From a virus, in IMG/VR virus record IMGVR_UViG_3300046529_000421, positions 1 to 51,987 of that record: a DNA stretch of 51,987 bases. One strand, given 5' to 3'. The position numbers were made by a program, and so were the translations under genes. Positions within the stretch are counted from its first letter, which is position 1. Every line of letters begins with the position of its first letter. Below the pieces are notes generated by a model. That model searched no databases. It was not told the DNA's origin and saw only the letters and a list, made by a program, of their open reading frames with translations. Shown piece after piece: positions 16,150-51,987 of this stretch.

Positions 16150-16487
16150 GGTATTTCTTTTATTGAGATCAGATGCTTTTTCTGAATGACGATCTCATAT
16201 CTAATATCATCTGCAATATTCTCCACCAATCCTTCCATCTCATCCAGAACATCGTCGTAATCCTCCCGAAAACTAGGATTGGGACGCTCGCCGTCTGGCC
16301 GCATTACTTTTAGCATCTCTTTTGATGATTGAATGACACTCCTGTAAGGCCAAGCGTGAGAACTACGACAGGGAATTCTCTCGCCCCGCTTAACTAGAGC
16401 TTCTACAGACTCCAGAGTATCTGTATCAAATCTCTCCGCATCCGGATCGACTAGATGCGCTCCATTAGTTACGTGTATTACAATCAT
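16146..16487 (-). CDS. Hypothetical protein
   Basis: The 113-residue product opens with a short beta strand (MIVIHVTNGAHLVD), has one potential metal or redox pair (PCRSSHAW), and an acidic helix (DVLDEMEGLVENIADDIRYE). I recognise no family. It is coupled to the ThyX gene by an ATGA overlap, which may only reflect dense packing. Confidence 0.68.
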   Translation of the reverse strand: MIVIHVTNGAHLVDPDAERFDTDTLESVEALVKRGERIPCRSSHAWPYRSVIQSSKEMLKVMRPDGERPNPSFREDYDDVLDEMEGLVENIADDIRYEIVIQKKHLISIKEIP

Positions 16488-17332
16488 GCTCCATCACCCT
16501 TCCTAGCCGCAGCCGGGTCAAACAGCCACTCCTCGTCTCGTATCTGTTCAAACTTATTTTCTTCGACCCGTCCTCTGATCGTACAGTCACGATCGAACTC
16601 TGCGTTGAATGGACACTTCCCCATTTGATAGCAGACCGGTCTGAACAGATCGCTCTTAGCAATCGTTTCAAATTGCCAGTCGTAGTCCTGCAACAAACGA
16701 TAGTTACGGATCGCCTCGACTATGCAGAACATAACCGAACGCCACTCAAATTGAGCCTGTGTACAGAGTCGGTTCCCGGCATGATCCGCTAGGTTACGCA
16801 GATTCGTCTTGTAGTGGAGACGGGTAGGTGTTGCATGCGGTAACAGTCCGCGAGCATCCTCAGCAGGCACTCCCATAGCTATCAACGCGCTATAGGCGTT
16901 CTCGATAGATGCCAGAGCCTTGTCCCATATAACCGACTCGTCAGACTCTTCAACGATACTCGGCGGAAACGCAGTATCTATCAAATCCTTCTTTACCGCG
17001 AAACGCAGCGACTCCTGAGCGAAGACTGCCGTTCGTTGCCGCACCATCTGGTGAGTGAAGGCTCGCGAGACTCCTTCTATCAAAAAGTGAAAGTCCACCG
17101 CCTCATGCGGCGCTCGCAGATGCGTTTTCTGAGACTCTGCCCAAAAATGTTTGCGTTCTATGTCGCTGACCTGAAAGAGGTCGCGCACTACCTCTCCTTT
17201 GTAAATCTTGCTCATCGCAGCAATTGCTCCGAGCGGGTCCGGAGTAGCGCTGAGCAGATATACCTTGATGCCGCCCTGCATAGGCTCGGCCTCGTACATC
17301 GCCTTATCTGCCCACTTCTGTATCTCATTCAT
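16484..17332 (-). CDS. thyX: Flavin-dependent thymidylate synthase (ThyX)
   Basis: The 282-residue protein has the ThyX core: FHFLIEGVSRAFTHQMVRQR (about residues 81-100), followed by TAVFAQESLRF. The signature RHRx7S is present as RQRx7S, with glutamine replacing the histidine at residue 99 and the serine at 108. ThyX makes dTMP from dUMP using FAD and methylene-tetrahydrofolate. The cysteine-rich C-terminal addition (CYQMGKCPFNAEFDRDC) is unusual and could bind a metal. Phage ThyX normally raises the dTTP supply. A paralogue acting on a modified base is also possible, given the nearby metabolic genes. Family call secure, precise reaction not. Confidence 0.88.
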   Translation of the reverse strand: MNEIQKWADKAMYEAEPMQGGIKVYLLSATPDPLGAIAAMSKIYKGEVVRDLFQVSDIERKHFWAESQKTHLRAPHEAVDFHFLIEGVSRAFTHQMVRQRTAVFAQESLRFAVKKDLIDTAFPPSIVEESDESVIWDKALASIENAYSALIAMGVPAEDARGLLPHATPTRLHYKTNLRNLADHAGNRLCTQAQFEWRSVMFCIVEAIRNYRLLQDYDWQFETIAKSDLFRPVCYQMGKCPFNAEFDRDCTIRGRVEENKFEQIRDEEWLFDPAAARKGDGA

Positions 17333-18928: not shown

Positions 18929-21900
18929 CTATGGCTCGATTACTTGCATTGAATTTACGAACACGACGCCGGACCTCTCGCCCTTGCCGCCAAAGTCTGC
19001 CTTTTTGCACTTCAGTAGCACCAAGTCCTTGGACGGGTCGATACCCCAGATCGCATCCTTGTATTCGGGGTATTTCGACCGACCAATAATGCAGATGATT
19101 AGCTCGTCGCCGTCCCGCACTCGCATGATGACCCACTCGTCTAGGTCGGGTCGCCAAATAGAGGAAAGGTCTAGCTCCTCGCCTTTCTTTTGGTTCTGCT
19201 CGTAGAGGTTGCGCAGGTTCCTCGCTACCGGCCTCCCAAGCAGTACGCACTTCTTATTCGATCCAAGTTTGAGTACCTCTCGGGCGGTATGCGTCGGCAC
19301 CGGGCAGTCGCCTAGCTCGCCCGCTTCTATCTGCTCTTTGACTTCCTCGATCTGTTCGTCTAGCGCGTAGATGCGGAACGGGTCTTCTTGTTGACAGAAG
19401 GCTACGATCTTTTCTATCGTTTTGGGTCCGAACCCGCTGATCTCTACTAGCTCAAGCTCATCGTAGCTCTTGAAACCGCCGATCTCGGTAGCTCGCTCCT
19501 CGATTACCGTTGCCTTCTTCTCTCCAACGCCGGGGATGCTTACCCACCCCGCGCGAATCGACTCGTCTTCGACCTCGATAGACCAATTCGCTTTCGACTC
19601 TAGGTTCGGAGCTAGAATCTCAATCTCATGCTCTTCACAGTCGCGCCGAAGTTTCTGTGCTTTTTCTTTCCCCTCGTCGCTCGACTCGTTGACCCTCGAT
19701 AGAGACGCCGCGAAGAACGCAGCCGGGTGGTAGACCTTCAGCCACATCGTCCAGAAGCTGATCATCCCGTACGAGTACGAGTGCGCTGCATTGAATGCGT
19801 AAGCTCCCGACGTAATGCACATCAGCCAGATTTTTTTGGCAGTCTCCTTATCCATTCGCGGCAACGATGGGTCTCTCTTGTGAAGCTCCTTCGCGCCTTT
19901 CCAAAACTCTTTCCACTCGCGGTTAAACTCCTGCTCACCTTTCTTCTTGGATATGATCTTTCGTATTTTCGCCGCGCCGGTATGACCAAACCCTCCTATC
20001 TCTCGGACGATTCTAATAATCTGCTCCTGGAAGATGATTTGATAATTCGTGGAGAGAGTAATTCTGTCCAAAGCAGGATGAATGCTTTCTCGGTCTGCTG
20101 CATCTCCCCACTTGACATCCACAAAGCCATCCACCGATCCGTTATGTAATGGACCAGGGCGGCCAATAGCAATAATAAGTGCGACTTCATCAAAGTTGTC
20201 AGGCTTAACGACTCCGTTGACAGTCCTCGTGATGTTGCCGTCATACTGGAATACGCCCACAACGTCATTCTCACGAAATCCGTCGAATACCTTCTCATCA
20301 TCCAGCGGTATATCATACAACTCCTCCAGACTCATATCGAGCATGTGCATGGCCTCGGCAAGCATGTCCATCGTATCGAGAGCGAGATAGTCGAGCTTCT
20401 CCATGCCCTGCCGCTCGGCATCATCTTTGTCCATCGAGATCGCGGTGATCCAGTTGCCACTGTTCTTGGGAACTTCACGTTCTAGCTCGGCGCAGACATC
20501 GGTAATCGGGCCGTTGCTCAGTACCAAACCGGCTGCGTGGACCCCGAATCCTTTGACATTACCCTCTAGGTCGAGCGCCGACGCAAGCTCTGGGTATTTG
20601 ACGAACGCCTCATAGGCAGGATCGAACTGGTTGACGGTATCCTCGATGGTTGCGCTTGCTCGCAGGTCGCCAGAGGATCGTTCCAGCAGGAATTCTTTGA
20701 CCGTCTCTACTGCCTTCTTCGGAACATCATGCACTCGCGCCGCGTCTCCTAGCGAGTTCTTGCCTTTGTATTTCGTAAACGTCCCGACGTTGCTGACGTG
20801 ACCCTGTCCGTACTTCTCAACTAGGTATTCGCGAACTACACTGCGACCGTAGGTAGCGAAGTCCAGGTCAATGTCTGGCATATCTTCGCGCGTCCAGTCG
20901 ATAAACCTCTCAAACACCAGGTGTTCATAGAGCATCGGATCGACCTCGGTGATACGCAGCAAATAACAAGCGAGACTAGCCGCAGCCGATCCGCGGGCAG
21001 GGCCGACCGGAATTTGCCGATCCTTTGCATATTTGACTGAGTCGGAGACGATCAAGAAGTAATTCTCATATCCCTTCGCCTCTATGATCTCCATCTCATG
21101 CTGAAGCTGCTGCCTGTATTCGTCTCGTTTGTCCTCTGGGAGTTCGTGGCAGCCTCGGTACCTCCAGCCTTCCTTCAACCAAGCGCGCCATAGCTCGGTC
21201 GGCGTATCGAACCCCTCTGGGAGGGGGTAATCGACCTTCGGTAGACGAGGGAGGGTGAGTCCCTTGCACTCCTGCGCGATCTCCTCTGTCGAGACGATGG
21301 CCTCTATCGCCTGCTGCTTAGTTAGGCCGGTCCCGCGTAGCTCCGCATAGATCGTATTGTCGGTTGCTGGCGGGCAGAGTGGTACGTCGTATCCCCAACT
21401 TTGCTCTAGCTCCTCTACGGTTCGCTTCTCGCCTGGACGGACACCATGAAGGACTTTCTGTATCTCAGCCTCCTCGGGAATAGTATAGTGACAATCTTTC
21501 GTGGCAACCAGAGGTCTACCAATAACCCTTGCGATACGGGCGAGCAGTGGATTAGCACGGCAGGTCTGCTCAAGCTGAGGAAAAGCCTGGACCTCGATAT
21601 AAAAATCATCAAACCTTTCGGAGAGCCAGCGCGCCACTGCCAATCCTCGCTTATACGAGGCATCCTCTTCCGCAACATGCTTCCCACCCACACACGCAGT
21701 AAAGAGAGCAGACCCAGTGCAACCAGAGAGAACAATAAGACCTCGCTGAAGCTCATATAGCCACTTCCAATCTACGGTAGGCTCATGATAGAATCCCTCT
21801 TTCCAGGATTTGGTCACAAGAGTTAGTAGGTTCTGATACCCCTCATCATTCTTCGCGATGACGGTCAGATGATTCTTTTTCTGGGTGCGACGATCCTCGT

Positions 21901-22273
21901 CAGTATGGCCAACGTAGAACTCGCAGCCGAAGATGGGTTGCACTCCCGCTTTGACTGCCGCTTGCTCTAGCTTCACGTGAGAGAAAATGTTACCATGCTC
22001 GGTCATCGCGAGCGCACCCATTTCGATCTCGCCTGCTCGGCGTACGTGCGCCTCGGGCATCTGGAGTCCGTCTAGGAACGAGAATGTGCTGTGGTGATGC
22101 AGGGAGACGAACCGCATCGGCTTCAAACCTATATGCGAATCCTTTTCTGCGGCAGCTTTAGCTTTGACCGCAATCGGCTGGAACTCCACATGACGTTTCT
22201 GCCGTTCGTGAAACGCCTCAATCTTATGTTTCTCCGCGTCATGGGAGCCAGCCTTGCTAGGCAAAGTTATCAA
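18929..22273 (-). CDS. dnaE: DNA polymerase III alpha subunit (DnaE type)
   Basis: The 1114-residue protein has the standard order. A PHP domain comes first (VSLHHHSTFSFLDG, residues 56-69). Next is a polymerase palm with PVGPARGSAAASL and the catalytic pair in MPDIDLDF (about 465-472). A KLDYLALDTMDML segment supplies the third aspartate, and a helix-hairpin-helix (PGVGEKKATVIEE) lies near residue 955. A short C-terminal domain ends the protein. It is the replicative polymerase of the phage. No proofreading exonuclease gene is recognised, so the PHP domain may proofread, as in some bacteria. The TTG start gives a 52-residue charged extension; the ATG at MRFVSLHHH would give the usual DnaE start. 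Neither has a strong ribosome site. Confidence 0.95.
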   Translation of the reverse strand: MITLPSKAGSHDAEKHKIEAFHERQKRHVEFQPIAVKAKAAAEKDSHIGLKPMRFVSLHHHSTFSFLDGLQMPEAHVRRAGEIEMGALAMTEHGNIFSHVKLEQAAVKAGVQPIFGCEFYVGHTDEDRRTQKKNHLTVIAKNDEGYQNLLTLVTKSWKEGFYHEPTVDWKWLYELQRGLIVLSGCTGSALFTACVGGKHVAEEDASYKRGLAVARWLSERFDDFYIEVQAFPQLEQTCRANPLLARIARVIGRPLVATKDCHYTIPEEAEIQKVLHGVRPGEKRTVEELEQSWGYDVPLCPPATDNTIYAELRGTGLTKQQAIEAIVSTEEIAQECKGLTLPRLPKVDYPLPEGFDTPTELWRAWLKEGWRYRGCHELPEDKRDEYRQQLQHEMEIIEAKGYENYFLIVSDSVKYAKDRQIPVGPARGSAAASLACYLLRITEVDPMLYEHLVFERFIDWTREDMPDIDLDFATYGRSVVREYLVEKYGQGHVSNVGTFTKYKGKNSLGDAARVHDVPKKAVETVKEFLLERSSGDLRASATIEDTVNQFDPAYEAFVKYPELASALDLEGNVKGFGVHAAGLVLSNGPITDVCAELEREVPKNSGNWITAISMDKDDAERQGMEKLDYLALDTMDMLAEAMHMLDMSLEELYDIPLDDEKVFDGFRENDVVGVFQYDGNITRTVNGVVKPDNFDEVALIIAIGRPGPLHNGSVDGFVDVKWGDAADRESIHPALDRITLSTNYQIIFQEQIIRIVREIGGFGHTGAAKIRKIISKKKGEQEFNREWKEFWKGAKELHKRDPSLPRMDKETAKKIWLMCITSGAYAFNAAHSYSYGMISFWTMWLKVYHPAAFFAASLSRVNESSDEGKEKAQKLRRDCEEHEIEILAPNLESKANWSIEVEDESIRAGWVSIPGVGEKKATVIEERATEIGGFKSYDELELVEISGFGPKTIEKIVAFCQQEDPFRIYALDEQIEEVKEQIEAGELGDCPVPTHTAREVLKLGSNKKCVLLGRPVARNLRNLYEQNQKKGEELDLSSIWRPDLDEWVIMRVRDGDELIICIIGRSKYPEYKDAIWGIDPSKDLVLLKCKKADFGGKGERSGVVFVNSMQVIEP

Positions 22274-22466: not shown

Positions 22467-22648
22467 CAGTCTTCCTCCTCGCCGCGCAATTCTGCAATCT
22501 GGCGCTCTAGTCGGACGTTGTCGTCTATTAACTCCCCTACGATTTTCGTAAGCTCAAGAGAGACGCTATGTAATAGCGATGTGCCGGGTTCGATGCTCAT
22601 AGACTTGAGCATCCTTTCCTTCAAATTATTGGCAGACTCTTGATGCAT
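22466..22648 (-). CDS. Small coiled-coil protein
   Basis: The ATG overlapping the methyltransferase stop (TAATG) gives 60 residues; a longer form would overlap the methyltransferase gene. The second half is a clear amphipathic helix with heptad spacing (LTKIVGELIDDNVRLERQIA), so the protein probably dimerises. Function unknown. Confidence 0.63.
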   Translation of the reverse strand: MHQESANNLKERMLKSMSIEPGTSLLHSVSLELTKIVGELIDDNVRLERQIAELRGEEED

Positions 22649-23148
22649 TATTCGACGGTCCTTATCAACTGAGTGAACAGCGAGAGGTTGCGCCAGACGA
22701 TCCCCATGATGAATTGTGTCTGGACCATCAGCTTCAGATCGCCTCCCGGCGGGTCGTAATGCTCGTTGTGCAGAAGATGCGGGAAGCTCTCCTCGGTCCA
22801 CCGCGTCTTCTTGTGTATGTCGGAGCTACCTAGCTCGGACATTGCATGCGGAGTAACGATGTTGATAACACCTCCCCGCACTAGAACACGCTCGCACTCG
22901 CGCAGGAGTGCAACGGGATCAATTACATAGTCGATGAAACCGTGCATATAGATCGCACCCACTGTGTTGTCCTCGCACGGCAGGGGGTCCAGGTCGGCAT
23001 CCCATCCTGTAGATCGGTCCAGATTTATCACCGGCTGTGGCATCGGGCTATGCCCCGACCCCAGGTTGAGGATTACACCTTTGGCCTCGTTCAGCACCGG
23101 CGCGATACCACGCTTACGAGATTCTTCAAACCACTCTCGTATATCCAT
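22648..23148 (-). CDS. Class I SAM-dependent methyltransferase
   Basis: The 166-residue protein has motif I (VILNLGSGHSP), the acidic end of strand two (INLDRSTGWDADLDPLPCED), the motif IV region (GAIYMHGFIDYVIDPVALLR) and the ECERVLVRGGVINIVTPH strand-helix of Rossmann methyltransferases of the Methyltransf_11 type. No DNA-methylase DPPY-type motif is seen, so a small molecule, sugar, lipid or protein acceptor is more likely than a DNA base, although a nucleotide is not excluded. It sits in the metabolic run between primase and polymerase, coupled on both sides. Confidence 0.8.
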   Translation of the reverse strand: MDIREWFEESRKRGIAPVLNEAKGVILNLGSGHSPMPQPVINLDRSTGWDADLDPLPCEDNTVGAIYMHGFIDYVIDPVALLRECERVLVRGGVINIVTPHAMSELGSSDIHKKTRWTEESFPHLLHNEHYDPPGGDLKLMVQTQFIMGIVWRNLSLFTQLIRTVE

Positions 23149-23513
23149 TATTTCTTTTTGCCTTTCGGAACTTTGGGAGGAGGCGGGGGAGGAGGCATTT
23201 CCCCCTCTTCGCCATCAAATATCTCTTCCTCCTCGTCCTCCTCTAGATCGACCCGCTCTGGCGTAGTAGACGGAGCCTCTAGCATTTTGAGATTCTTCTC
23301 GGTGACCTCATGGAGCGACTGATTCATATGCTTGTCTGAACAGAAGTGGAGATACAGACGGCCTTTCTCCGAATCTTTGAACTCGATCCTGACCCATCCT
23401 CTTGGACAAGAACCGTATATGTGTCCCTCGCCTTCTACTGGTTTTGAATGTTCTCTTACAGACTCATTACATTTGCTGTAGTCACAGAAGTATTCATGAG
23501 TTACTTTCCTCAT
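23148..23513 (-). CDS. Zinc-binding protein with acidic, proline-rich tail
   Basis: The ATG overlapping the upstream stop (TGATG) gives 121 residues from MRKVTHEYFCDYSKC. The first two thirds have four cysteines (FCDYSKC, SCPRG, HFCSDKHM), a pattern like small FYVE- or treble-clef-type zinc proteins. A glutamate-rich run and eight consecutive prolines (MPPPPPPPPK) follow before a lysine end. A similar small zinc protein is often found near phage replication genes, but I cannot name a function. Confidence 0.68.
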   Translation of the reverse strand: MRKVTHEYFCDYSKCNESVREHSKPVEGEGHIYGSCPRGWVRIEFKDSEKGRLYLHFCSDKHMNQSLHEVTEKNLKMLEAPSTTPERVDLEEDEEEEIFDGEEGEMPPPPPPPKVPKGKKK

Positions 23514-24262
23514 CAGAACCAACTCCCGTCGCGGTTGCTCTCGCGGATTGCCCGGATCGTAAACGCCGCGAAATTGATAAGGTCATACAGGTCATCTTCT
23601 ATCGCGCGTATCGAATCCGATTGAGAGTTATAGCGATGGTCTGCGTCCCAGAGACCGTCAAATGCTCTCTCGGCTCGCTCGCGCAGACGGAAAACGCAAC
23701 CACGCCACCCGAACCTACGCCAATTATCCTTATACGTCTCGTTGCGCTTCCCGTATATCTTTATGGCTTTGATCAATATATCTACTTGTTCTTGAATCGG
23801 AGTCTCTGCGTAGCCGTAGGTCTCATCTAGTAGCTCCGGTTTTGGTTCCTCTACATCTTTCGGACCAACAGCGTATTCGCGAACCTCGACCCGCAATCCA
23901 TTCGGATGTTCAAGCCAGATGCGGTTGCTGTCCTCGCGCGCTCTCGTACAGAACTCATAGGACTTCAAATCGTCGTATCGACTGCGCGAGACGTATACAC
24001 AAAAATGTCCCAGGTTCAGAGAGGTAGGACCGATTTTCTCGTCGTCTGAGATCAAGTGTATCTGCGTACCGTCGGCGTCCTGCCACCAACGCACCATCTG
24101 GTTGACACTCAGACTAAGGGCCTCCGCACTATCCGGAGTAACCTCGACAAATCCGAGAGCCTCCATGAATTCTCCTGCTGGGTCTCGTCTCCCCTTCTCT
24201 GGAGTTTGCCAAATAGTAAGTGCGTTAGCAGGAACCTGATATGTTATGTGCTCGATCTTCAC
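23513..24262 (-). CDS. VOC domain fused to DUF1599/Nmad-like nucleotide-modification domain
   Basis: The GTG start overlaps the upstream stop (GTGA), giving 249 residues. Residues 1-135 form a VOC fold: IEHITYQVP, GEFMEALGFVEVTP, SLNLGHFCVYVS and the closing NGLRVEVREY strand. Residues 150-245 match the all-helical DUF1599-type domain: KRNETYKDNWRRFGWRGCVF, RLRERAERAFDGLWD and the acidic DDLYDLINFAAFTI helix. The second domain is associated in the literature with phage nucleotide or DNA modification operons and resembles MazG-type folds that bind nucleotides. The fusion ties the VOC enzyme to a nucleotide substrate. Domain calls are from motif pattern only. Confidence 0.72.
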   Translation of the reverse strand: MKIEHITYQVPANALTIWQTPEKGRRDPAGEFMEALGFVEVTPDSAEALSLSVNQMVRWWQDADGTQIHLISDDEKIGPTSLNLGHFCVYVSRSRYDDLKSYEFCTRAREDSNRIWLEHPNGLRVEVREYAVGPKDVEEPKPELLDETYGYAETPIQEQVDILIKAIKIYGKRNETYKDNWRRFGWRGCVFRLRERAERAFDGLWDADHRYNSQSDSIRAIEDDLYDLINFAAFTIRAIRESNRDGSWF

Positions 24263-24513
24263 TCGTCCCACTCCTTCGGTTCCATCGTGCCGTCCTCCCA
24301 CATCGTGAAGTACGCCCAACCATTAGGATGTACCTGCACTCCGCGCCAGACGGCCTCTGGAGCCTCGTCTTTTATTTTGGCTTTGAGGTCGAAGCTTTCT
24401 AGTTCCTCGTCGTAGCTATCTGCATCAAGCACGACAGTTTCGTCCTCGGTGTAGTGCCCTACGTTGCTTAGGGTCCACGCCTGTGACTTGTTTATGGGCA
24501 GACCCCTCGGCAT
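24259..24513 (-). CDS. Hypothetical acidic protein
   Basis: The 84-residue protein is acidic (about one quarter D/E) with beta strands rich in W, V and F (EAVWRGVQVHPNGWAYFTMW). It has no cysteine pair or membrane helix. It overlaps the SDR stop by one base and the VOC fusion start by four bases. It could be a small partner of those enzymes. Confidence 0.65.
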   Translation of the reverse strand: MPRGLPINKSQAWTLSNVGHYTEDETVVLDADSYDEELESFDLKAKIKDEAPEAVWRGVQVHPNGWAYFTMWEDGTMEPKEWDE

Positions 24514-25214
24514 TAGCGAGTACCTCCGAACAGCTCAACATTGCTGCCGCTCAGCCACTCCAGCGACCGCTCCGTCAGCAGCATCCCGATCACATCGGCA
24601 ATCTCTCGCGGAGACATGAACGGCATTTTGAGGTCTTTTTCCGCGTAGTTATCTGCCTCCTCGCGGGTATAGCTCTTATTGTGCATGACCCCGTCCTGGA
24701 CCGTATCCCACATAGGAGTTCCGACAACATGGTAGGGATGTACGATGAAGGTACGGAAGCCAAGATCACTAGTCTCCCAGGCGAGAGTCCGCGCCGCCAT
24801 ATTCAGACCAGCCTTCGCCGCGCAGTACGCCGTGCCCGTAGAGAAGGGATGCGAGTGAGCGTAGGAGCCGACTAGAACGATCTTCCCGCCCTTACCCTCC
24901 CTAGCTTCCAGGTAGTGCCGCGCCGCCAGTAGAGGGAGCGTTAGGCAGCCTCGGATAACGTCCTCGATTTCCCTCGGCGGGGCAGTCGGGAACGCCTCCA
25001 TAGAGGTCCGACCCAGAGTTACAATTAACGCTTCCGCATCGGCGTAGTTAAGCCCCAGTGGCACTATGTAATCCGGCATCAGTCCGTGAGTCGACATACA
25101 ATTCGACTCTTCGACTGTCATATCGAACTGCTCTGTTAGGACGAATGTGACGGCATCGCCTATGTTGGGTTTCTCGGTCCTGCCCTCCGACGATCCGAGT
25201 ACAATTGCATTCAC
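24513..25214 (-). CDS. Short-chain dehydrogenase/reductase (SDR)
   Basis: The GTG start overlaps the HAD stop (GTGA). An AAGGAGCTACACCC stretch inside the HAD gene serves as ribosome site. The 233-residue product is a short SDR. Active serine lies in IVLVGSYAHSHP, and Tyr and Lys lie in GTAYCAAKAGLNMA (the YxxxK motif). A later FIVHPYHVVGTPM segment corresponds to the cofactor-binding loop. The N-terminal glycine-rich strand is atypical (MNAIVLGSSEG), so cofactor preference cannot be read. SDRs reduce or oxidise sugars, steroids or nucleotide sugars and are rare in phages. The neighbourhood suggests a nucleotide or sugar substrate. Confidence 0.8.
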   Translation of the reverse strand: MNAIVLGSSEGRTEKPNIGDAVTFVLTEQFDMTVEESNCMSTHGLMPDYIVPLGLNYADAEALIVTLGRTSMEAFPTAPPREIEDVIRGCLTLPLLAARHYLEAREGKGGKIVLVGSYAHSHPFSTGTAYCAAKAGLNMAARTLAWETSDLGFRTFIVHPYHVVGTPMWDTVQDGVMHNKSYTREEADNYAEKDLKMPFMSPREIADVIGMLLTERSLEWLSGSNVELFGGTR

Positions 25215-25861
25215 GGGTGTAGCTCCTTCCAGCGCTGGATGCGCGCCAGTATTTCTTTCGTTATTTGTCTTAGGTCGCGATAGTCATATGATGAGTTGTA
25301 ACGAGTAAGGCGAAGCATCGCGACACCTTCACCAAACTCTCTTTCTGCTTCCCGAGTTTTCTCTCGAAGATCGTCTACAACGGCGACGACTCGATCCCGG
25401 TCTACTAGCTCGGCAAGTCTTGCGTACTTGTCTTCGTCATAGATCAGCCCGTCATACTCGATACCGTGTTGCCGCAGCCAGGCGCGGGTATCTGGGTCGA
25501 TGTTATCAAGGCGCAGGTAGGGCCGTGTCGTCGTGACCCATAGTTCTGTGCCGGTCCTACGGATGAACTCGCACATCGGCTGTGCCCAGGAGTAGATCGG
25601 CATAGTCCGCTTTTGTGCGCCTTGCCTGTATGCAAGCTTGATGTCGTGCCACTCCTTTTCGGTGATCCCGAAAGCATCCATAGCCCATTCTTTGAAACCT
25701 TCGTCGCCGCGATACCAGCGCATCGGTCGCAAGCGGTCTGAGTCTCGGCCGAGATACTTTTCCAAGAAGGAAAGGAAATGGCCATGGTAGTCACCCAGGG
25801 TGCCGTCGATGTCAACGGCTACCACTGGGCGTACTACCCGGCTGCACTCAGAGCAGAGCAT
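25211..25861 (-). CDS. HAD-superfamily phosphatase
   Basis: The ATG overlapping the FAD-gene stop (TGATG) gives 216 residues. HAD motifs are clear: motif I VVAVDIDGTLGDYHG (nucleophile D), motif II WVTTTRPYLR, a motif III lysine in DEDKYARL, and motif IV AVVDDLREK. The cap region is long enough (about 70 residues) to close over a small substrate. Such phage enzymes are often 5'-nucleotidases that trim deoxynucleotides, which would fit with a nucleotide pathway. Confidence 0.82.
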   Translation of the reverse strand: MLCSECSRVVRPVVAVDIDGTLGDYHGHFLSFLEKYLGRDSDRLRPMRWYRGDEGFKEWAMDAFGITEKEWHDIKLAYRQGAQKRTMPIYSWAQPMCEFIRRTGTELWVTTTRPYLRLDNIDPDTRAWLRQHGIEYDGLIYDEDKYARLAELVDRDRVVAVVDDLREKTREAEREFGEGVAMLRLTRYNSSYDYRDLRQITKEILARIQRWKELHP

Positions 25862-26769
25862 CAGACGATGCGCGAACCCGGGTGCTGTAGACCCTGCCGG
25901 ACCTGCTCCGGAACGTGATGCAGGAGAAGGCGGCGATCCCAAGTGCCGAATCGACCGACCCGAACGACTGGAGCGTCGCCTTGATTCATAAAGCAGTCAC
26001 ACAGAGTGCCGAGAGGCTTACAGCCAAACAGAATCTGATCTGTCCATACATCGTAGGAGTTATTCAACTGCATCTCTCCGTTATATTTGTGAAGCTCTGA
26101 GTGTCCGAACTCAATCCAGGACGTTCCAAATATGTTGCTCATTCGATACCATCGATCCTGCTCGCGTCCCGAATAGATGACAAAGTTTGGTACGTCCAGA
26201 CTCTCGACCGGCTCGGCAATTGCAATGTCTACCTTCGGGAAGTCGTGACTAGCATTGTGGCAGTACGCCTCCGGAGGTATGGTCGAGAATATTTGAGAGT
26301 ATTCTCCCGATTCGATCAGCGTCTGCATATTCGAAGAGTTGATCTCGGAAGCTATGAGATTATCTTCGTACAGTCTCCACAGTTGACTGTAGACCGGATC
26401 GAGCTTCCATGCATCAGTCTTGGGTTCGATAACTTCCCAACTAGTAATCTTTCCTGGCTCGTTGTATATCTTCTCAGCGTATACCTGCTTCGAACCTAAA
26501 CGACAAAACTCGATCTGACCGTCTGGTGGGGTGTCTGCCATCATTCCGATAGGTTGATGGAGGAACTGTGCCCCGCTGATAGGACTAGGTTGGAGCGGCG
26601 ACTTCGACAGGATTTTAATGCGGTCCTTCTCGATGCCTTCGCGCTCCAGCGTCCAGGCCGCGATTAGCCCGGCTGGGCCGCAGCCCAGGATTGCGATTGC
26701 GTCGCCAGAGGGGCGCTCTCCTGCGGGCACCTCGGCCTTTGCGTCGGTCTGCTCTGCCACGGCACTCAT
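25861..26769 (-). CDS. FAD/NAD(P)-binding oxidoreductase-like protein
   Basis: The 302-residue protein begins with a Rossmann dinucleotide-binding motif after a short polar lead: AIAILGCGPAGLIAAWTLER, with GxGxxG. The rest does not contain further clear FAD motifs. It has a PISGAQFLHQPIG region and a cysteine/histidine-containing middle (YCHNASHDFP, GCKPLGTLCDCFMNQ). The C-terminus (VRVGRFGTWDRRLLLHHVPE) may form the substrate domain. Similar proteins are amine or hydroxylase-type oxidoreductases. Coupled to primase upstream (ATGA) and HAD downstream (TGATG). Redox function likely; substrate unknown. Confidence 0.72.
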   Translation of the reverse strand: MSAVAEQTDAKAEVPAGERPSGDAIAILGCGPAGLIAAWTLEREGIEKDRIKILSKSPLQPSPISGAQFLHQPIGMMADTPPDGQIEFCRLGSKQVYAEKIYNEPGKITSWEVIEPKTDAWKLDPVYSQLWRLYEDNLIASEINSSNMQTLIESGEYSQIFSTIPPEAYCHNASHDFPKVDIAIAEPVESLDVPNFVIYSGREQDRWYRMSNIFGTSWIEFGHSELHKYNGEMQLNNSYDVWTDQILFGCKPLGTLCDCFMNQGDAPVVRVGRFGTWDRRLLLHHVPEQVRQGLQHPGSRIV

Positions 26770-27758
26770 ACTGTGTCCTTTCTTTTGAACTTTTCTGCTC
26801 CGTATAGAACCTCAGCCAGAAGCTCTACCGGATCGTCTTGGTGGATTAGTAAGTCTGTTAAGTCCTTGCCGTGATCCTCTTCGATTGGATACGGCAACTC
26901 ACACTCATAGACATCAGCGATGTCGTCTAAGGCTCGCCCGATGATCTGATTCTGCTTCTGGCCCTGCTTGTCTGCATCAGCGCACAAGAATACCCGCAGC
27001 CCTGCGAAGGCTATGTCCCAGGCACGGTTCCAAGGCTTGCCTGCACCGCTGGTCGTCGTGACTGCTAGGAACCCCGCTTGCAGACAAAGGAGCGTATCCC
27101 ACTCGCCCTCGCATATGATGATGCTATCTCCGTCCTCGCACCAATCGAGCGCATGTGCCGGATAGATGCGAGCGCGGTTCATGCCGCGAGTACCCCATAT
27201 TTTCCGTCGTCCAAACCTCGGTGACGGATCGTATGTGCGTACGTTCCATATCTCTCGTTCCGCTCCCTCGGGGGTCGGCGCGAAGATCGGTATTTTGAAG
27301 TACCTTCCATCGAACCCGATCTTATGGCGACGTATCGTAGTGCGATTGATACCGCGAAGGTTATACAGACGACGCTGCTGACCCTCCTCCTCCTGGAGCG
27401 CGTCGTACCATTCTTTCGCCTTCTTGAGAAGGTTCTCGGGCCGTCCCATCGCATCGTTCGCCGCCTCCTGTAGTCGATCCCTAAGCCCGATGGAGATGTC
27501 TGCCCTACTCTCCATCGGGACCCAGGTGTCCTCCGCATCAATCAACTGGCTAAGAGAGGAACCGCCGCAGCCTGCGTGGCAGTACCAGACGCCCATGTTC
27601 AAGTTCAGACTCGCACTCTTGCGCGAATCCGGGTGAACAGGGCAGAACATTTCCATCTCACCGCGAGCATCGGGCATCGACCCCGCGATATAGGGCGCCA
27701 GCTTCTCCAGTTGTTGATCGGTGACCTTCATGGAACTAGGCGGACTCGCCTGCTCCAT
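26766..27758 (-). CDS. DnaG-like primase (CHC2 and TOPRIM)
   Basis: The 330-residue protein has a CHC2 zinc domain (FCPVHPDSRKS ... VWYCHAGCGG: C39, H42, C60, C64). A TOPRIM domain follows, with the acidic triad in IIICEGEWDTLL (E217, D221) and FLCADADKQGQ (D261, D263). It makes RNA primers for the DnaE polymerase. No helicase domain is fused, and the RepA/DnaB-like ATPase at 14-15 kb may fill that role. Two starts are possible: MEQASPP as given, or the ATG nine codons on at MKVTDQQ, neither with a good ribosome site. Confidence 0.9.
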   Translation of the reverse strand: MEQASPPSSMKVTDQQLEKLAPYIAGSMPDARGEMEMFCPVHPDSRKSASLNLNMGVWYCHAGCGGSSLSQLIDAEDTWVPMESRADISIGLRDRLQEAANDAMGRPENLLKKAKEWYDALQEEEGQQRRLYNLRGINRTTIRRHKIGFDGRYFKIPIFAPTPEGAEREIWNVRTYDPSPRFGRRKIWGTRGMNRARIYPAHALDWCEDGDSIIICEGEWDTLLCLQAGFLAVTTTSGAGKPWNRAWDIAFAGLRVFLCADADKQGQKQNQIIGRALDDIADVYECELPYPIEEDHGKDLTDLLIHQDDPVELLAEVLYGAEKFKRKDTV

Positions 27759-51338: not shown

Positions 51339-51987
51339 TTACCGCCCTCTCGCGGCGATCTTCGCCGCCTCGTCGGACATGCCCTGAGCTTTGAAGCTCT
51401 CGATCAGGGGGTCGTCCGCCTTACCGTCATCGCTACCGCCGGACGGCGATCCGCTCTCCGAGAAGAACGAATTGTCGCTGCCAGCACCGCTGACCTCACC
51501 AATCTTGGAGCCGGACTCGGCCAGGTACTGAGCCTCCTCACGGACGCGAGCGCGGGTACGCTCCTCCAACACAGCCGAGTCGAGGTCATCGCCGTTCATC
51601 GGCAACGTCCCAGCGGTAACCGACTCAATGATCCGAGTCTTCGCCTTGCTGGGCAGGTTCTCGACCGACTCCAGGAACTTGTCAACCATGCCGATGGCCT
51701 TGGTTTTCGTGTCCCCTTCCTTGCGAGCCTCCTCTTTACGAGTAGCCTCGTCTTTCGCCTCTTTGAGGTCTTTCTCTGCCTTCTCAGCCCGCTCGTTAGC
51801 CTCTTTGACGGCTTTCTCGCTGGACTCTTTGAACTGGCGGAACTCGTTGCGAAGCTCCGACAGCCCTTCTGCATCAGCCATTTCTTTGGCCTCCTGTTTC
51901 GGATCGCCGGAGCGACCGTTGACTTTTTCTTCTATGTAACGTGCTTCAGGTTCCTCCAAGTCGGCATACGGGTCGCGGCTGAAAAGC
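51339..51987 (-). CDS. Capsid protease-scaffold fusion, C-terminal part
   Basis: This is the rest of the gene whose start lies at 876. The last 127 bases repeat the window start. The segment from about residue 250 on is charged and helical (EFRQFKESSEKAVKEANERA, KAEKDLKEAKDEATRKEEAR), the expected look of a scaffold that is degraded on maturation. It is followed by a Ser/Gly/Asp-rich stretch (SGAGSDNSFFSESGSPSGGS) and a short terminal helix (LIESFKAQGMSDEAAKIAA) that probably binds the capsid protein. The decoration gene follows 6 bp later. Confidence 0.85.
   Translation of the reverse strand, partial: LFSRDPYADLEEPEARYIEEKVNGRSGDPKQEAKEMADAEGLSELRNEFRQFKESSEKAVKEANERAEKAEKDLKEAKDEATRKEEARKEGDTKTKAIGMVDKFLESVENLPSKAKTRIIESVTAGTLPMNGDDLDSAVLEERTRARVREEAQYLAESGSKIGEVSGAGSDNSFFSESGSPSGGSDDGKADDPLIESFKAQGMSDEAAKIAARGR
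51861..51987. repeat. Terminal direct repeat (assembly overlap), right copy
   Basis: This is the exact copy of bases 1-127. It belongs to the same protease-scaffold gene, so only one copy should be counted. Joining the copies closes the circle without a frameshift in that gene, which supports a true circular or circularly permuted genome. Confidence 0.95.

Follow-up and report, generated by a model that had tools for sequence, protein, structure and literature searches.

The virus record IMGVR_UViG_3300046529_000421, analyzed over its whole length of 51,987 bases (the window, to which all coordinates refer unless a locus is named), carries seven genes packed between a primase and a DnaE-like DNA polymerase. 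They encode, in this order, a flavin adenine dinucleotide (FAD)-binding protein, a HAD phosphatase, a short-chain dehydrogenase/reductase (SDR), a small acidic protein, a VOC-DUF1599 fusion, a Cys-rich protein and a methyltransferase; past the polymerase are located a second VOC gene and then a homologue of the flavin-dependent thymidylate synthase ThyX. Sequence comparison places the FAD and HAD proteins, DUF1599, DnaE and ThyX in a phage-borne core present in approximately 150 distinct virus sequences, with the SDR and the methyltransferase as optional members. We give an even chance to the explanation that this cassette encodes a pathway working at the deoxynucleotide level, which would supply the phage DnaE with an altered nucleotide, most likely a pyrimidine, and so protect the virion DNA. 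In such a pathway, the divergent ThyX would alkylate C5 of deoxyuridine monophosphate (or of a related nucleotide), the FAD protein would perform a redox or transfer step on the ThyX product, and the HAD enzyme would trim phosphates from deoxynucleotides or remove competing ones. The DUF1599 domain may aid nucleotide binding or channelling, and the SDR, VOC and methyltransferase proteins could add lineage-specific tailoring steps; DnaE would then incorporate the altered nucleotide, and the altered base would shield the virion DNA against attack by host nucleases. What was observed is the gene set with its co-conservation and exchange of partners, its fusions, and a related set carried by restriction-resistant phages; all substrates, the sequence of reactions and the occurrence of the product in DNA are inferred.

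The cassette was found to be widespread. A tblastn search with the FAD protein identified 120 phage records (Gordonia 46, Microbacterium 36, Mycobacterium 26, Streptomyces 9, Arthrobacter 2 and Nocardia 1), and a search with the HAD protein identified 77 from the same host genera. At the nucleotide level, megablast of the window against phages gave no match. Single-sequence scans of IMG/VR with the FAD or fusion protein returned nothing and alignments were required; a profile of six FAD proteins retrieved 80 IMG/VR loci, and hidden Markov model (HMM) searches of all loci, with viruses taken as distinct at 95% identity, delimited 154 that carry the FAD gene. The block is present, whole or in part, in the annotated phages Nova (cluster D), Xenia2 (DV), Gibson, Wollypog, Hiddenleaf, Onyinye and RikSengupta, and its order recurs in phages of Mycobacterium cluster D, Gordonia DV, Streptomyces, Arthrobacter and Microbacterium, where it is annotated but unexplained. 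Two independent contigs, L161 and L162, display the order primase-FAD-HAD-SDR-acidic-fusion-DnaE-ThyX, and since the arrangement recurs in these and in many other phages it is far beyond chance. The first-pass annotation of the window had proposed a search for the same gene order in other phage genomes, which was thus successful, and its remark that no exact match was known is superseded.

Nova (gp61-gp68) and Xenia2 (gp69-gp84) resemble the window in holding an FAD oxidoreductase, HAD, methyltransferase, DUF1599-like protein, FabG-like SDR, DnaE and ThyX in one block; in contrast to the window, neither a VOC domain nor the zinc and acidic proteins were recognised in them, and their SDR keeps the catalytic Asn. 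These cluster D and DV genes have been annotated only as enzymes, and their function was never explained (PMC11385102). The Microbacterium phage RikSengupta (cluster EF, gp55-gp71) shares with the window the order FAD-HAD-SDR-VOC-DUF1599-DnaE-ThyX, but its VOC and DUF1599, adjacent and following the SDR as in the window, are separate genes of the type found in Wifcevirus (see below), and no methyltransferase is annotated. A search for a published description of the cassette, whose coverage did not extend to Iyer et al. 2013 (Nmad domains), turned up only genome announcements and surveys.

Linkage to the FAD gene was quantified by counting neighbors only in distinct viruses with enough flanking sequence. 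The distance to HAD is at most 2 kb in 116 of 139 viruses, that to DUF1599 at most 3.5 kb in 117 of 130 and that to DnaE at most 5 kb in 124 of 125; an SDR is found nearby in 43/130 and the methyltransferase within 3.5 kb in 15/130. Seeding from the partners gave a similar picture: the FAD gene is present in all 74 new HAD-seeded loci and in 58 of the 80 ThyX-seeded loci, and 21 of the other 22 end before the FAD position. ThyX was found in 48 of 50 whole cassette records, the window included. Homologous clusters lacking DUF1599 or ThyX had been named in the first-pass annotation as evidence that would count against an altered base; by these counts both genes are regular members of the set. 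Gene order varies (ThyX is located between FAD and DUF1599 in L003 and L026, and the SDR downstream of DnaE in L014 and L046), yet the set persists, and it has therefore been held together through rearrangement.

Fusion and replacement of its members further characterize the set. The VOC-DUF1599 fusion is no assembly accident, since two other contigs (L161/L098 and L162/L149) have it in the same order, and a different fusion, of the HAD phosphatase to a DUF1599-like domain (phrog_4889), exists in Pbunavirus Ab27 and E. coli phage Bas100. The sole intact ThyX-seeded locus without FAD, L194, has a nucleoside 2-deoxyribosyltransferase (PF05014, 1.5e-14) and a YfbR-like 5'-deoxynucleotidase (PF12917, 2.4e-23) in the FAD+HAD position (L194:4924-6014), preceding DUF1599-DnaE-ThyX. 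The swap suggests deoxynucleotides as the substrates of the FAD and HAD proteins; it is known from this single contig, one scan of close relatives having returned no second example. Because of the co-conservation, the fusions and this replacement, the cassette genes appear to form one shared pathway, even if the DNA is unmodified.

Searches with DnaE and ThyX led to a second lineage, in Pbunavirus and Escherichia Wifcevirus. Its FAD protein (phrog_4828, in Ab27 and Bas100) matches the window family in a profile comparison (177 columns, E 8.6e-7). The Bas100 genes are Bas100_0051 (FAD), _0048 (HAD-DUF1599), _0047 (SDR), _0046 (VOC) and _0049 (ThyX). The SDR of Bas100 and of Xanthomonas phage Carpasina matches the cassette SDR model at ~1e-47 and is adjoined by a VOC protein, and VOC and SDR are equally numerous in each host genus (Escherichia 27/27, Serratia 9/9, Xanthomonas 6/6, Microbacterium 4/4 and Pantoea 3/3; these are counts, not a record-by-record match). 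Neither SDR nor VOC was found in Pbunavirus. Wifcevirus, Carpasinavirus and Pbunavirus phages (Bas100, Carpasina and Ab27) are thus similar to the window in carrying the FAD protein, HAD, DUF1599, ThyX and DnaE, with SDR and VOC in Wifcevirus and Carpasina, and differ from it in the fused HAD-DUF1599, the FAD family, their Proteobacteria hosts and the lack of a recognised methyltransferase. Between the lineages, DUF1599 of the window type matches only weakly, and the DUF1599 and VOC of RikSengupta are clearly of Wifcevirus type; an exchange of DUF1599 and VOC genes between the actinophage and Wifcevirus lineages is suggested. The comparison did not show a single VOC subfamily spanning the window and Wifcevirus (hhalign probability ~10%); the two have only the superfamily in common.

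The Wifcevirus phages Bas98-101, all four of which encode SDR and VOC, were reported in 2025 to withstand almost every restriction system tested, the mechanism being left unexplained. Missing restriction sites were considered and rejected as the full cause, as Bas100 retains 19 EcoRI and 5 EcoRV sites. We put forward tentatively, and with more doubt than conviction, the wider proposal that in hundreds of phages a pyrimidine of the DNA is replaced or decorated by a hitherto unknown flavin-dependent deoxynucleotide hypermodification, based on the divergent ThyX, the phage-borne FAD enzyme and HAD-DUF1599, and that this explains the resistance of Wifcevirus; besides Wifcevirus, the phages concerned would include the cluster D mycobacteriophages and the Pbunavirus phages employed in therapy. 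If this were true, one gene set would account for the resistance reported in 2025, and a function would be provided for several gene families that bear the labels "oxidoreductase", "phosphatase", "FabG-like" or "hypothetical" across hundreds of phage genomes, among them those of widely used therapy phages.

Several points weigh against an altered base. Part of the linkage is explained by shared ancestry of the replication module, and between the window and Wifcevirus the FAD and VOC families are only distant relatives. Wifcevirus remains sensitive to EcoP1_I, and Bas100 (PQ850605.1) contains 106 GATC sites versus 297 expected and no BamHI or SacII sites; this avoidance counts against protection, because an already protected genome would not need it. 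The DNA of Pbunavirus JG024 is cut by SacII (PMC3008698), so that at least G/C-only sites are unblocked in this relative carrying the core set, which weighs against bulk modification of G or C in this lineage. ThyX with a non-His RxR motif is not specific to the actinophage-type cassette, the TAGT glycosyltransferase passes in only three of 50 cassette records, and no kinase for a modified triphosphate was recognised, although host kinases could serve.

The SacII digestion of JG024 DNA also favors a plainer and, in our judgment, rather unlikely alternative, namely ordinary nucleotide supply with four normal bases: ThyX would make thymidylate (dTMP), HAD and DUF1599 would adjust the pools of deoxynucleoside mono- and triphosphates and recycle host nucleotides, and FAD and SDR would turn over cofactors. 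Phages commonly encode ThyX and deoxynucleotidases as pool enzymes, and some cassette phages carry genes for MazG and deoxycytidine triphosphate deaminase. However, making dTMP does not need a dedicated phage-borne FAD family, an SDR, a VOC protein and a methyltransferase, and the restriction resistance of Wifcevirus would be left unexplained.

Compared with described systems, the cassette is closest in kind to known phage DNA-modification pathways, with an enzyme set unlike any of those compared. Thymidine hypermodification in phages ViI and M6 is a multi-enzyme pathway that starts from a thymidylate-synthase-like step and includes an FAD enzyme, features that the cassette shares; unlike in ViI/M6, a 5-hydroxymethyl-dU kinase, a pyrophosphorylase and an amino-acid transferase were not recognised in the cassette, no genome-wide search for these having been made. 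With TET/TAGT glycosylation of 5-hydroxymethylcytosine the likeness consists of a TAGT glycosyltransferase in a few cassette phages, the window having none. This system was rejected as an explanation given the scarcity of TAGT; a Tet_JBP dioxygenase passed in none of the 50 cassette records, window included, in a scan in which the control genomes gave nothing either. As a separate observation, the TAGT-type glycosyltransferase family (PF20691) occurs in 21 cassette loci (e.g. L009:13717-14529 and L101:408-1400), frequently in the interval from DnaE to ThyX or close to the helicase, and no TET enzyme was found.

The individual proteins were examined by alignment and structure prediction. The FAD protein has the GxGPxG FAD motif, and its AlphaFold model (predicted local distance difference test, pLDDT, 87) has UDP-galactopyranose mutase, renalase and FAD monooxygenases as nearest PDB folds at a template modelling (TM) score of ~0.5, a predicted fold class that leaves the substrate unfixed. 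In the alignment, positions C170/H175/C257/C259 are all Cys/His in ~70 of 86 sequences and none is in 16; being present or absent as one set, this tetrad behaves as expected of a metal site, and probably is one. One peptide pattern tried on bacterial chromosomes did not reveal the FAD family there. The HAD protein is 47.5% identical to Xenia2 gp70. Alignments of the SDR show that the catalytic Ser, Tyr and Lys are retained and that the usual Asn is Cys, likewise in L161 and L162. The C-terminal domain of the fusion groups with the DUF1599-like family; the window protein itself is below Pfam significance for DUF1599, and six of 38 family members match PF07659 (best 8e-5). This domain is modelled as a helical three-helix unit (pLDDT mostly >90). 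The predicted fold of the N-terminal domain matches glyoxalase, FosB and DOPA-dioxygenase (Foldseek), with His/His/His/Glu as possible metal ligands. The earlier label of a VOC/DUF1599-like fusion can therefore be retained, through homologues for DUF1599 and through predicted fold for VOC.

The ThyX of the window has RQR in place of the RHR motif, and the His is missing from all ~145 cassette-locus proteins with a readable motif. We nevertheless discarded the non-His motif as a cassette hallmark: ThyX of Pbunavirus, Serratia, Escherichia and Rhizobium phages also lacks the His, and RHR is kept in GordDuk1, P1201 and Shaeky, which likewise speaks against such a hallmark. The methyltransferase was tried as a DNA methylase and rejected, since the alignment contains no N6A/N4C or C5 motif and only Methyltransf_11-type matches were obtained. 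The HMM search of the loci with the Cys-rich putative zinc protein matched the window alone, and the acidic protein was found in three other contigs only (L161 and L162 at ~40% identity, and weakly L165); both are peripheral to the cassette. The suggestion in the first-pass annotation that such a set could make and install an altered base, or convert a nucleotide cofactor to escape host defence, is partly supported: co-conservation with the polymerase and ThyX fits nucleotide modification, but the zinc and acidic proteins are marginal and the methyltransferase is not of DNA type.

That the methyltransferase, SDR and VOC belong to small-molecule enzyme families, the first without DNA-methylase motifs, and that renalase and UDP-galactopyranose mutase are among the nearest folds of the FAD protein, would suit a cassette that synthesizes or converts a small molecule or cofactor (for example flavin, folate, nicotinamide adenine dinucleotide or a nucleoside signal) blocking host defence while the DNA stays unchanged. 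We regard this as improbable, as both the constant coupling to the polymerase and ThyX and the L194 swap point to deoxynucleotides. Equally little probability attaches to the idea that these genes are unrelated metabolic passengers inherited along with a successful replication module: most carriers have the helicase-exonuclease-RecA-primase-DnaE module in common and actinophage clusters form one gene-sharing network (PMC7302621), but the set outlasts rearrangement, occurs in another arrangement in Pbunavirus, Wifcevirus and Xanthomonas phages and has members that fuse, and Gordonia phage Yndexa has the same module (helicase, Cas4 exonuclease, RecA-like protein, DnaE, RuvC and primase) without the cassette genes. 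In Yndexa, no FAD, HAD, DUF1599 or ThyX is annotated in the replication stretch, and FAD is absent from the whole record. The pham table of the Xenia2 announcement displays the same pattern across clusters (PMC11385102).

The window has a direct terminal repeat of 127 bases (1-127 and 51861-51987), suggesting a complete circular assembly. Nearly every gene is located on the minus strand, which carries the whole cassette. As the first-pass annotation had described, the run from primase to polymerase is compact: at every junction of the seven genes stop and start overlap by 1-4 bases. ThyX and the second VOC gene were also confirmed downstream. The features are listed below, with matches from Pfam and PHROGs scans of selected window genes.

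Features of the cassette and its edges in the window (starts corrected for the HAD phosphatase, 25861, the fusion, GTG at 24262, and the Cys-rich protein, 23513)
Feature	Coordinates	Strand	Matches and relatives
Stand-alone TOPRIM primase, upstream cassette edge	26766..27758	-	phrog_239/47/6088 DNA primase, best 1e-14; PF13155
FAD-binding oxidoreductase (core)	25861..26769	-	phrog_8720, 6e-29
HAD phosphatase, deoxyribonucleotidase-like (core)	25211..25861	-	phrog_415, 4e-15; PF06941 NT5C, weak, 0.04
SDR (optional)	24513..25214	-	PF00106, 9.5e-13; phrog_3142, 4e-13
Small acidic protein	24259..24513	-	relatives in L161, L162, weakly L165
VOC (N-terminal) and DUF1599/Nmad1-like (C-terminal) fusion (core)	23513..24262	-	phrog_1485 on C-terminus
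Cys-rich putative zinc protein	23148..23513	-	no family at significance
S-adenosylmethionine methyltransferase, small Methyltransf_11 type (optional)	22648..23148	-	phrog_6636, 7.8e-26; PF08241, 1.2e-6
DnaE-like DNA polymerase III alpha	18929..22273	-	phrog_405, 6e-278
Second VOC-superfamily gene	17904..~18311	-	distant relatives only in L167, L171
ThyX flavin-dependent thymidylate synthase homologue	16484..17332	-	PF02511, 3e-32

Additional genes were found within cassette loci of related viruses. A gene of the uracil-DNA-glycosylase superfamily (PF03167) is present in L038 (11646-12314) and 19 other loci, usually directly between DUF1599 and DnaE. That some cassette loci have such a gene or a TAGT glycosyltransferase close to DnaE or ThyX counts in favor of the proposed nucleotide-modification pathway. 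A pyrimidine-dimer-glycosylase-like gene (PF03013) is located just upstream of FAD in L065 (7435-7983) and in RikSengupta (gp54), the family being found in 24 loci. In many cassette phages (L003, L005, L074 and others) DnaE is split in two genes, some with an HNH endonuclease gene between them.

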